From: Nitzschia sp. pyKryTriq1
Lineage: Eukaryota; Bacillariophyta; Bacillariophyceae; Bacillariales; Bacillariaceae
Direction of reading: 5' to 3'
DNA: 64,000 nucleotides
Assembly (NCBI GenBank): GCA_956465555.1
Contig: OY101121.1
Span: 830,722 to 894,721, forward strand
A program made the translations under genes and the position numbers. Under the pieces are notes generated by a model. It was not told the DNA's origin. It ran no database searches and saw only the letters and a list, made by a program, of their open reading frames with translations. This document shows positions 59,545 to 63,796 of this stretch, piece by piece; the stretch's first letter is position 1, and every line of letters starts with the position of its first letter.

Positions 59545-62500
59545 TTAGTAGTATCGCCACCAGCCACTCGCGCCACGAGGAATCATTTCAGGAACCTCTT
59601 CAATTAGACGCTCCCACATGACTGCATCTACATTTCGGTAGACAATAGCGCCAATCTGTTGAGCGCGCTCTGGTAGAGACCAAAACAAAACCTTGAGGTA
59701 TCGCACACGTTGCATGTGTCGCGGAAGATTCGAAATGACATAAGGGATGATGATCTCCCAGCGGTCGGCGGCAGTGATTTCCCAAACTTTACGGGAAATT
59801 TCCTTTTGGACTTCGAGAGGAAGGTACTTCTTTCCGATAGGTTGCAAGTTATCTTCTTCGCCCTTGAGATGTTCCTCGAAGTGTGCAAAAAAGGGAGGAA
59901 GAATCTTGTTGAGTACATCAAGCGCTTGTTGGCGTTGGGCGACGGGGAGAGAACTGTCGAGCAGGTAGTTGGCATTCTTTTCGACATCATCCATGACAAC
60001 GTGGAACTCATCGTGGTCATCGTTGAATTGCTTAGCGTGGTCGTGGAACCAGTCGTTGAAGACCTTGAAAATGACTTCGTCTTCATGCTTGGAGTGCTCT
60101 TCGTGCAAAATGCTGAATCGGTTCAAGTGAACGGCGAACATGCTGAGATTCTGGTTCATTTCCTCCGTGTTGGTCAAGTCGAGGCTTCGCAGCGCCTCTC
60201 GCATGGTACTCATGTTTCCGCGGAAGGCTTCATGCGTGAGTTTCATGAATGAGAGAGGGCCCCACTTGTTCTCGGGGACAAAAATACCGCGCCGACGAAT
60301 CAGAGCAACGCCCGTGTGAAGCAAGTTGGCAAGGTTAGCGACCGACGCCATGACCAACCCAATGGTTGCAAGAGTCTGGGCGGCGCGGAAGTCTGTGACT
60401 GCATAAAAGAGGCAAGCAGCAGCAGCTAATGCACCCAGCGCGAAACAGCCAATCCAGTATTCCATCCCCCACTTGTCCTTTCCGATGAATCCTATGTTAG
60501 GCATCGCCGAGTAGACGATTCCCAAAAACATGAAAATCGAAATGAAGTAGTAGTTTGAGAAGGAATTGACACACTCATTCTTGTCAATTGGACTCTTTGA
60601 GTAGAAGCACACCGAAAAGTCTGACATCCCCAGTACAGCCGGCGCAGCCAACCACGTGAAGATACCAAATCGAAGACGGGTGTCGCTGTTGTGTGTAGTG
60701 ACAACCTTGAAGAAGGTAATGGTGAAAAGGACCAAAAACATGAACACTGCGAATGCCTGGAAGAAGCGAGCAATAAAGACAGTTCCTTCGGCGCTGTCGC
60801 TGTCGGTGGCGAAAAGAGGAATCACAGGGGCAACCAATGCGGCAACGCTCAATCCAACAGGTAGGATGAGCCAGTGTGGATGGACGTGCTCTATCTCCAG
60901 TCGCCGAGCAATCCATTCACCCATTTTGGCGACGGTCAGGAAGACCTGGGCGATGGCTCCGATCCAGAAGAATATACGGGAGACGATCTGGGGTGGCTCT
61001 TCATTACCGGCCATCGCTTCATCTTGATCATAATCAATCTGATCATAGAACAAAAACGCAAAGCACATGAAACAGAGTGGAATCATCGAGAAGGAATTTC
61101 CACGGAGAGGGCAGTGCCACTCAGTGACGCACTTGTGGGGATACATTACTAGCCGAATCATGTAGAGACAAAACATGAGGAAGAAGATCAGAAAGCCAAC
61201 GGCTGAAATAGCCTGGAAGGCTCCTTCGTGTACAATGAAGCCTCGCTCTTCCACACCGAGGGCGGTGCTGATACCGTTGGTCCAGTCAGAGGCAACTTTG
61301 AAAGCAATGGCAAGGGCAGCAATCGAAAGTGGAAGAGCGAAGTACCCCACCTGCATGTGACGGATAAAGTCAAAGTCATCCTTGCTGTATTCATCAGTCT
61401 TCTTCTTGTATTTCAGGGAAATGGCAGAGGTCGGATCACTGTCATGCACGGAAGCAATAGCAACCATGAAAATTCGTTAGAAAATAGCTCGATTGCTTCT
61501 TTAGTAGAAACAACAAAGCGCGTTACTCACGTGTCAACTTTCTCCGGGATGGGCGCTTTCTGATCCAAAAACATGTAGTTCCAGCTCTCTTCGGTCTCCT
61601 CACGAGACGAAGTATAGATGCGATAGGCGTACTGTCGTATATGGAACAAGAAGCAATAACAAGCATGGAAATTAGTTAGAAAATGGCTCGTTCGCTTCAG
61701 AAAAAACCATAAAGCACGGTACTTACGTCGGGAATCAGTCCCAGGTATATTCCGATCTGGAAGAATTTACACCCGAGGCAGAAATCCAAGGCCCACTCCA
61801 TACCCGAAGCACCAGCCAGTCCAGCCATAAAGGCCATGCCGACCCACTCATGGTATTCGAAATCAAGGAAATAAAAGAGGGTTCCCAGCCCAGAAAACAT
61901 GACCCCGCAAAACGAGGCGAACTGTTTCGGGGGCCCGGGACGGAATTGCGGGCGGAAGGGCGAGACCAAAAAGGTGGCAATCATGCCCAAGGGCGAGGCC
62001 GAAGCACCGGCCATCATGCGCAAGCAAAAGTCGAGCAAGACAAAGACGGTGAGCCAGTGGGCCCAAAGCTCGTCCTTGAATACCGCGCAAACGACACTGA
62101 GGGCGCACACTTGAAAGCCGACTACACGGATGACGTAGTTGTTGACCACGTTGGGGAACCAGAAAAGAGGGTTCATGGCCACGCCGCGGTCGGCAGGAAT
62201 CAAGCGGGCAGTTTCTAGCCTGTCAGTACCGACGGCGCGAGATTTGTTGACCAAGCCCTTGAGCAAGGTGTCGAGCTTGCCCTTGTGGTGAAGGGCCTTG
62301 ACATCATCGCATCCTCCAATGAACGCGCCCTTGACGAATACCAACGGGACAGTGGACCTTCCAGTCTTAGACTTGGCGTATGCAAAAATCTTGCCGCCCT
62401 CGGGGTGCAAGTTCACTTCGACGGAGTGAACGGTGACGCCAATCTTGTTGATCAAGAGGTCCTTGACATCTCGGCAAAAGGGACAGGTGGACTTGCTTAT

Positions 62501-62692
62501 CACCAAAATGGCATGGAGGTCAATCATAGCATCAATCTTCTCCGCAAGATCAGCCCCAGGATAAGATTGAATGTCGTTGATGACAATCGAACCACCAGCG
62601 GGGTCACTTTCCTTGGAAGCCCCAGCGGCGACTTCAATGTCCTCGAAGACCAGGGGAACGCCTTCGCTTGAGGCTTTCGTGTTGGGGGGCAT
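59545..62692 (-). CDS. Glutaredoxin-DUF4395-TDT/SLAC1 channel-hemerythrin fusion protein (3 exons)
   Basis: Exons are 61727-62692, 61531-61631 and 59545-61438 (986 aa). Introns are GT-AG with matching phases (0, then 2/1). Residues 40-150 are a glutaredoxin with the dithiol site CPFC (70-73), TVP cis-proline loop (about 115) and IGGCDD glutathione-binding end. Residues 173-322 are a DUF4395-type membrane domain (NPLFWFPN start, CLGC pair at 305-308). Residues about 384-736 are a ten-helix TDT/SLAC1/TehA-like anion channel (HMQVGYFALPLSIAAL). Residues about 793-893 are a hemerythrin-like four-helix bundle (HLNRFSILHEEHSKHEDE, HDHAKQF, DDHDEF, HFEEHLKGEED) with enough His/Glu for a di-iron site. 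A 90-residue tail ends IPRGASGWWRYY. I infer a redox-, iron- or oxygen-gated anion channel. If intron 1 is kept, translation stops 10 codons later, leaving glutaredoxin-DUF4395 alone. Confidence 0.87.
61439..61530 (-). other. Fusion-gene intron 2 (92 bp), homologous to intron 1
   Basis: The donor is GTGAGT and the acceptor ATGACAG, with branch-site-like TTTTCTAAC. Over most of its length it aligns with intron 1, including the segment ATTTTCTAAC-x-AATTT. Confidence 0.88.
61632..61726 (-). other. Fusion-gene intron 1 (95 bp), homologous to intron 2
   Basis: The donor is GTAAGT and the acceptor ACGACAG. It shares with intron 2 the order GT-AGTA-CG-GCTTT, GAAGC, CGAGC, ATTTTCTAAC, CATG-x-TTG and TATTGCTTC. 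Confidence 0.88.
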
Positions 62693-63796
62693 GGTGCGAG
62701 TGAGTGGTAGAAACAAGAAATGAAGTGGGGAGACGCAAGCGGTTTGTCTGCTGCTCTCTTTTCAAGTTTATTAATATGAACAGAACGATGAACGCGTTTC
62801 TGGCGTCGCCTTCGTTGCGGTCGTTGGTTCTTTCGAAAGCCGCGCGCTGTAGCTACTTGTACGAACTGTACGAAAAGTAGTGTTGCTGCCGTTGGTGCAG
62901 TTTTCGGGGTCAAACCGGTTCGTCGAATGATGAAGAGAATCCTGCATGCACTACCACCAAGCTATGTACCATTACTGTATGGAGCATTCTGGCGCCCATT
63001 ACCTGGTACTGCATTTGGAGCATTATTGCGCCGGCTGGCTGGGGTGTCTTAAAAACGTTTGTTTATTGAGAGAGTGATTCCAGATTCCGTATTCCTATAG
63101 ACCTTCCGACCGTGCGTCCGATAATGTGTGTGATTATAATTTCTTGGTTACGCTACTTTCTCATGTGTTTCCCGGTTGCTGCTTTGGAGCCACTGGGTGT
63201 AGTGTGCTGCAGATGTTACCCGGATTTGTGGATTATGTTATGATCAGATTTTTGGGCAACCCTCCAGCCACGTAGTCTGCAGTCCAGTAAGCTTCTGACG
63301 AAAAGAGGACTTTTCTGCCCATAATCGCTTGTTTTTCACGTTTTGTACCGTTCAAAAATCCAAATAAAACAGTAAGCGCCCTTCTAAAACTCAAATAAAA
63401 CAGTAAGCGCTTCCCAGAAAGGATGGAAATATCACGATAATGACATATATAATCATCAAAAATAGCAAGTAATGAATGATTCTGAGGCGCGTAAAATCCA
63501 AAACCATGCCATCAAATGCGAAAGTGTCATCGGTCATTGGTCATCGTCGCCTGCGCAATTCGAGATTTTAAAGTTTTGGATGCGAAATTTTCAATGGCTC
63601 ATAAGGATCCCGGAGGTTCAAAGGCGCGTTAAAATACGAGGTGCGGAGGATTGTTTTCTTTATTTAACGCATGTGACACCAATCTTCTTCTTTTTCCTTT
63701 CTTTTCCCCTCCTTTTTCTTTTATAAAATCCGAGCAAACTACGTGGGGGGTGGCTAGCTGATTTTCGGTTGATGTGAAGGGTGGGCTGATTTCCGA
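62693..63796. other. Intergenic region at right side
   Basis: It includes the promoter of the fusion gene, an imperfect repeat of GGAGCATT-x-TGGCGCC type near 62981-63030 and a 19-bp direct repeat at 63361-63410. A T/C-rich tract lies near 63685-63720. No confident gene is seen. Confidence 0.5.
63361..63410. repeat. 19-bp direct repeat
   Basis: CAAATAAAACAGTAAGCGC at 63361-63379 and again at 63392-63410, separated by 12 bases. Confidence 0.88.

Follow-up and report, generated by a model that had tools for sequence, protein, structure and literature searches.

Introduction

Four domains that each belong to a known family lie in succession on the minus strand at positions 59545-62692 of a 64,000-nucleotide stretch of the genome of the diatom Nitzschia sp. 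pyKryTriq1 (contig OY101121.1; hereafter the window), and the locus raises the question of whether they are encoded as one protein and what such a protein might do. A preliminary description had read them as a glutaredoxin, a DUF4395 domain, an anion channel of the SLAC1/TDT family and a hemerythrin fused in a single polypeptide. Splice sites, codon bias, intron homology and domain matches support one spliced gene for this predicted four-part protein, and we give roughly even chances to the reading that it is a SLAC1-family anion channel whose regulators are glutathione redox and a diiron site.

Evidence for a single spliced gene

Joined in the direction of transcription, the three minus-strand segments 62692-61727, 61631-61531 and 61438-59545 give 2961 nt, comprising 986 codons and a single terminal stop. 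This bears out the coordinates, strand, splice borders and frame first proposed and, at the sequence level, splice sites, codon bias and Pfam domains likewise back the four-part fusion. The first intron runs from a GTAAGT donor at 61726 to a GACAG acceptor at 61632 and the second from a GTGAGT donor at 61530 to a GACAG acceptor at 61439; both are located where the fusion is joined, in the linker that connects DUF4395 to the channel, and the reading frame is kept across both splice joins despite their unlike phases (0 and 2). Codon log-odds served to score coding potential; the usage table came from 22 other long frames of the window, and every stop incurred a fixed penalty. Exon 1 scores +56.4 bits in frame, compared with -74.5 and -55.6 bits in the two other frames, and for exon 2 the joined frame reaches +6.1 bits, compared with -3.0 and -7.5 bits for the others, which taken alone is modest support given the shortness of this exon (33 codons). 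Both introns score negatively in all three frames.

The two introns are homologous to one another, a feature not covered by the preliminary description. Their global alignment score is 113, as against 53 for the best of 300 shuffles, blastn reports 79% identity over 80 nt, and the likeness spans the introns from GT to AG, with TTTTCTAAC common to both. The exon ends that flank them show no likeness by eye. Since copying as a unit between splice sites would otherwise be hard to explain, this suggests that both introns are spliced. Taken together, the twin GT-to-AG introns, the coding bias of exon 2 and the survival of the frame through both joins are the reasons why we favour one spliced gene. 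With regard to the origin of the twin introns, duplication of an exon together with its intron was considered and rejected, because the phases differ and the flanking exon ends are unlike by eye; duplication of the intron only, or membership of an introner-like family, is possible. Introns 1 and 2 are the only ones found to be copied from one another in the manner of introner-like elements, no convincing third copy was detected within the 64 kb window, and the intron core gave no matches to viral contigs.

What chiefly competes with a single protein is a message left unspliced or only partly spliced, which could yield separate proteins. The locus might also hold two genes, one encoding glutaredoxin and DUF4395 and ending in intron 1, the other encoding the channel and hemerythrin-like parts and starting at an ATG in intron 2. 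Consistent with this, the exon 1 frame continues into intron 1 as far as a stop at 61697-61699 (331 codons), and the exon 3 frame stays open as far upstream as 61476 and has an in-frame ATG within intron 2 at about 61467. The two-gene reading leaves unaccounted for the GT-to-AG match of the introns without exon-end likeness, the coding bias of exon 2 in the joined frame and the intactness of that frame through both joins; because of the intron homology and the exon 2 bias we place it lower, as very unlikely. We also observe that, since intron 1 has an early in-frame stop and intron 2 an in-frame ATG, retained introns would allow separate glutaredoxin-DUF4395 and channel-hemerythrin proteins to be made from this locus. 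The features of the preferred model, a single spliced gene, are listed in Table 1.

Table 1. Predicted features of the four-domain gene, in window positions (E, expectation value).
Feature	Position	Strand	Description
Exon 1	61727..62692	-	residues 1-322; glutaredoxin and DUF4395
Intron 1	61632..61726	-	95 nt, phase 0, GTAAGT...CTAAC...GACAG
Exon 2	61531..61631	-	101 nt, residues 323-356, last codon split with exon 3; DUF4395-channel linker
Intron 2	61439..61530	-	92 nt, phase 2, homologous to intron 1
Exon 3	59545..61438	-	residues 356-986 and stop; SLAC1/TDT channel and probable hemerythrin
Glutaredoxin domain	62318..62509	-	residues 62-125; Pfam E 3.9e-12, well above curated cut-off
CPFC active site	62474..62485	-	residues 70-73
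DUF4395 domain	61757..62146	-	residues 183-312; Pfam PF14340 E 1.2e-21, well above curated cut-off
CLGC motif of DUF4395	61769..61780	-	residues 305-308 (Cys305/Cys308), within FCLGC
SLAC1/TDT channel domain	60313..61359	-	residues 383-731; Pfam PF03595 E 2.8e-26, profile positions 1-330 of 331, well above curated cut-off
Phe688	60442..60444	-	aligns with gate Phe262 (transmembrane segment 9, TM9) of Haemophilus influenzae TehA, position counted along the TehA chain in the alignment
Hemerythrin-like domain	59839..60255	-	residues 751-889; H758, H804xxxE808, H831xxxH835, H879xxxE883

The glutaredoxin, channel and hemerythrin-like domains

In the N-terminal part, the CPFC motif is followed by TVP (residues 114-116) and GGCDD (126-130), which we take to be the active site, the loop and the glutathione-binding motif of a glutaredoxin, respectively. 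The CPxC, TVP and GG-DD signatures of class I are all present, and glutaredoxins of the CPYC/CPFC type are class I dithiol enzymes; the window protein shares CPFC, TVP and GGCDD with these and differs from them in being joined to a membrane protein. The best match among solved sequences is a glutaredoxin 2 (E 1.2e-15), and the 58 distinct solved sequences that match at E <= 0.001 are named glutaredoxins, thioredoxin or thioredoxin-glutathione reductases, and a few others.

The channel part shows ten hydropathy peaks between residues 383 and 736, in agreement with the TehA-like ten-helix channel proposed earlier, the count resting on hydropathy only. The NCBIfam model TIGR00816 (tdt) also matches exon 3 (E 9.7e-23), at 81 bits, which is under its own cut-off of 237. 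Phe688 is the sole invariant column (20/20) in alignment A1, and the TehA residue with which it aligns has been described as gating (PMC11050165) and as corresponding to F450 of SLAC1 (PMC10645844). The near-full Pfam model, the ten segments and the TM9 gate Phe are common to the window protein and to SLAC1/TDT channels such as plant SLAC1, H. influenzae TehA and yeast Mae1 and Ssu1. The Pfam family is described as taking in Ssu1, the yeast sulfite pump (PMC6765260), and the substrates named for its members are sulfite (Ssu1), malate (Mae1) and, for the anion channels, nitrate and chloride (PMC6765260, PMC10645844). Plant SLAC1 is reported to be switched through phosphorylation of its cytosolic tails, and its N- and C-terminal intracellular domains to control the channel by plugging and releasing the pore (PMC10645844). 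The window protein resembles plant SLAC1 in carrying extra domains at both predicted cytosolic ends; unlike SLAC1/TDT channels, its flanks consist of glutaredoxin-DUF4395 and a hemerythrin-like domain in place of phosphorylated tails.

The C-terminal domain is probably a hemerythrin, and is the weakest of the four domain calls. Its ligand motif is complete (H758, H804, E808, H831, H879, E883) and has the form H-HxxxE-H-HxxxE described for diiron hemerythrin-like domains in BTS proteins (PMC12022348). When the C-terminal 247 amino acids are scanned alone, the Pfam Hemerythrin model reaches 25.7 bits (E 1.8e-5), just over its cut-off of 25.3. Residues 737-986 reach 16.2 bits, in a shifted alignment register, with a profile built from 22 bacterial hemerythrins, compared with 0.9 bits for the reversed sequence and a best score of 9.6 bits among the 3748 scoring shuffles (of 4000 made). 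Among 20000 composition shuffles of residues 741-900, 88 contain the ligand pattern with HxxxH in the third helix and 409 a looser one, and in a stretch so rich in His and Glu the motif alone is not overwhelming. The C-terminal half gave three weak matches in 149 genomes (E 0.0077-0.0079), one of which (L040, E 0.0078) overlaps a hemerythrin. Beside BTS/HRZ, hemerythrin-like diiron domains are carried by FBXL5 and YtfE. The window domain has the ligand motif in common with those of BTS/HRZ, and differs from domains of this type in its weak overall sequence score and its attachment to a channel.

Predicted topology

Membrane segments were placed by hand on hydropathy, which shows about four peaks between residues 182 and 320 in DUF4395. 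We oriented them with the positive-inside rule for membrane protein topology. The DUF4395 loop 232-257 contains three lysine or arginine residues and no acidic ones, the C-terminal tail starts with IRRRG, and the channel loops 407-429, 491-505 and 566-582 are acidic. Because of these loop charges, both the glutaredoxin and the hemerythrin-like parts are predicted, with modest confidence, to be on the cytosolic side, as are the intracellular domains of SLAC1, and the CLGC motif is predicted to lie in the final DUF4395 segment, toward its cytosolic end. The preliminary description had the channel gated at one end and at the other; this remains true of the ends of the sequence, with both of them now predicted on the same cytosolic side of the membrane.

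DUF4395 and its bacterial neighbourhoods

Both cysteines of the CxGC motif are conserved in 12 of the 13 rows of alignment A3, the exception being L009, and in a second DUF4395 alignment of 17 rows, without L009, the first cysteine is present throughout (17/17) and the second is missing in L086 and L089. The bacterial DUF4395 membrane proteins share the Pfam match and CxGC with the window protein, at identities of up to 33% for the closest in A3, that of Tsukamurella. In the four that were scanned, no second family scores above its cut-off, and where a thioredoxin lies near DUF4395 it is encoded by a separate gene, unlike the fusion in the window. DUF4395 is present in 17 of 398 genomes (reached via two Clostridia-type records), and the Nocardia domain gave 59 pattern matches in viral contigs, none of which was confirmed.

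We examined the gene neighbourhoods of eight DUF4395 loci from seven records (L072-L076 and L087-L089), leaving out hit H24 as too weak and H28 by choice. At three of the eight (L074, L087 and L089), which belong to Nocardia, Thiothrix and Microbacterium, a thioredoxin-fold gene is found nearby; its Pfam match is Thioredoxin in Nocardia (8.9e-9) and, with two genes between, in Microbacterium (7.8e-22), and Thioredox_DsbH in Thiothrix (1.1e-68). Rhodanese genes adjoin DUF4395 at two, identified by Pfam in Nocardia and by annotation in Microbacterium, and a TauE/SafE sulfite exporter is encoded near it at one (Microbacterium). The Nocardia order is thioredoxin, DUF4395 and a double-rhodanese protein, the genes being frames read here, as the record is unannotated at this locus. 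On the Microbacterium plasmid (L089, 498-4344), genes for thioredoxin, a metallo-beta-lactamase with rhodanese, TauE/SafE, DUF4395 and rhodanese run in one direction; this cluster is likely a sulfur-handling operon, from which a function for DUF4395 might be deduced. At this locus the frame of DUF4395 is apparently shifted near its end. In Tsukamurella, a gene with a flavodoxin domain adjoins DUF4395, and the other four loci have no thioredoxin-fold, rhodanese, exporter or flavodoxin neighbour. The link of DUF4395 to thiol or sulfur chemistry thus holds for a subset of loci only. DUF4395 had been introduced as a domain without a set function; what the neighbourhoods supply is a context, with thioredoxin-fold and rhodanese genes in some bacteria and, once, TauE/SafE.

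This context lends itself to a different reading of the window protein, namely that it is a sulfur-handling unit and not a gated sensor, in which the glutaredoxin and DUF4395 would perform thiol or persulfide chemistry at the membrane, the TDT part would export the product, a sulfite-like anion, and the hemerythrin part would handle iron, O2 or nitric oxide. The Microbacterium cluster and the Nocardia gene order fit such a unit, as does the reported presence of fungal Ssu1 in the SLAC1 family (PMC6765260). Set against it are the rarity of rhodanese neighbours (just two of the eight loci, with 17 further loci scanned for CxxC only) and the fact that the window protein itself has no rhodanese match in Pfam, and we consider this reading somewhat unlikely.

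A possible channel regulated by thiol redox and a diiron site

For the preferred reading, a regulated SLAC1-family channel, the following mechanism may be proposed. The dithiol glutaredoxin at the N-terminus would form a glutathione-linked thiol relay with the DUF4395 membrane domain, in which Cys70/Cys73 could exchange with the DUF4395 CxGC near the cytosolic face of the membrane, and the C-terminal hemerythrin-like bundle would hold a diiron site. Both regulators would sit at the cytosolic side, where plant SLAC1 has its pore-plugging and pore-releasing domains, so that thiol redox state and the diiron site, through its occupancy or oxidation, might favour an open or a closed pore around Phe688, and anion export would thereby follow the glutathione, iron or oxygen state of the cell. 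Thiol exchange between the modules, diiron binding, gating and substrate are all points that we infer. Exchange between CPFC and CxGC is suggested by their predicted topological proximity and by the neighbourhoods in which thioredoxin and DUF4395 occur together; gating by thiol redox and by iron or oxygen is plausible given the presence of the active-site and ligand residues and the predicted cytosolic position of both soluble domains. A small oxyanion, either sulfite or one such as nitrate, is the likeliest substrate, sulfite being favoured solely because of the DUF4395 neighbours. The most specific version, in which glutathione redox acting through glutaredoxin on the DUF4395 CxGC and the state of a diiron hemerythrin jointly open and close a SLAC1-type pore, is doubtful.

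Several observations weigh against a regulated channel of this kind. The single-protein model is a prediction from sequence. The topology depends on hand-placed segments, and the short loops of the channel carry seven lysine and arginine residues inside versus five outside. The pore Phe of transmembrane segment 3 (TM3; Phe82 in TehA) is not at the aligned column, which sets the window protein apart from SLAC1/TDT channels: it aligns with Ser471, next to Phe472, so that a one-residue shift would change the result. This residue is not required for membership of the Pfam SLAC1 family. At the DUF4395 loci, five of eight are without a thioredoxin-fold neighbour, and when about 1.5 kb to either side of 17 further loci was scanned, for thioredoxin-like CxxC motifs only, no clear thioredoxin emerged (two matches in short frames were dismissed by eye); the neighbours are, moreover, uninformative on gating.

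The remaining adverse observations concern the hemerythrin-like domain, and some bear on the idea that the C-terminal bundle holds no iron and is a helical domain that has degenerated or serves a structural role. In the whole protein the Pfam Hemerythrin model (PF01814) scores 21.8 bits (E 2.7e-4), below the cut-off; the HHE-type bundle of the preliminary description has its complete ligand motif and the score of the C-terminus alone in its favour, and falls short in the full-length scan. Profile-profile alignment with hhalign to the 22 bacterial hemerythrins is poor (probability 19, E 0.0012, 28 columns, out of register), exon 3 has no hemerythrin match in NCBIfam at E <= 1, and there is none among its 11 solved-sequence matches at E <= 10. 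AlphaFold2, run without relatives on the C-terminal piece alone, gave a helical model with a mean pLDDT (predicted local distance difference test) of 39.6, too low for the model to be used. The full-length Pfam score, the poor profile alignment and the lack of hemerythrins among the solved-sequence matches speak for an iron-free bundle; the completeness of the ligand motif, seen in so few shuffles by either pattern, a profile score exceeding those of all scored shuffles and the passing of the Pfam cut-off by the C-terminus alone argue the other way, and we judge an iron-free bundle to be clearly unlikely.

Should the doubly gated channel be correct, algal efflux of sulfite or nitrate would be tied directly to thiol and iron or oxygen status, with no kinases involved, and DUF4395 would gain a function, that of partnering thioredoxin-fold proteins in a thiol relay at the membrane. 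With a glutaredoxin and a likely diiron domain built into it, a SLAC1 member would be a channel that is itself a direct chemical sensor. The fusion also offers a concrete handle on DUF4395, which is scarcely mentioned in the literature searched, and on a possible coupling of iron or redox stress to the loss of anions or sulfur in microalgae.

Relatives of the fusion

The collections searched for relatives are not described as holding eukaryote genomes, and absences from them are uninformative on algae. Against viral contigs, exon 3 and exon 1 gave 3 and 8 pattern-matching stretches, respectively, none of which was confirmed. Plasmids contained no match for exon 3 and none for the C-terminus, and 172 plasmid records matched exon 1 partially, none covering 80% of the query; phages gave no match to exon 3. 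In genome contigs exon 1 matched two loci, in its glutaredoxin part only, and exon 3 had four weak matches in 398 genomes, all within the channel part. SLAC1 matches were present in 27 of 149 genomes (26 above cut-off) and hemerythrin in 100. Since the longest open frame among the SLAC1 matches listed from these genomes is 393 amino acids, none of those matches is a SLAC1-hemerythrin fusion.

The literature searched, which did not extend to domain-architecture databases, contained no paper joining glutaredoxin, DUF4395, SLAC1/TDT and hemerythrin. Among the papers listed on SLAC1 in diatoms, including Phaeodactylum, no such fusion appears in the titles or abstract openings, and a report on green algae, where it distinguishes two groups of TDT proteins, does not use the word glutaredoxin in its main text (PMC3509319). 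Each part belongs to a known family, and the combination is a new architecture and a new variant of SLAC1-family channel, which may already stand in domain-architecture databases without a paper.

Other features of the window

Neither Rfam, at gathering score, nor ARAGORN reported any match in the window. A methyltransferase of the PRMT type and a mitochondrial carrier are also encoded there and fit a eukaryote. A 544-codon frame on the minus strand at 36931-38565 matches the ATP synthase alpha/beta nucleotide-binding domain (E 1.3e-14), its sole Pfam match at E <= 0.001. Upstream of the four-domain gene, at 63348-63409, are two tandem 31-nt repeats that are 87% alike.

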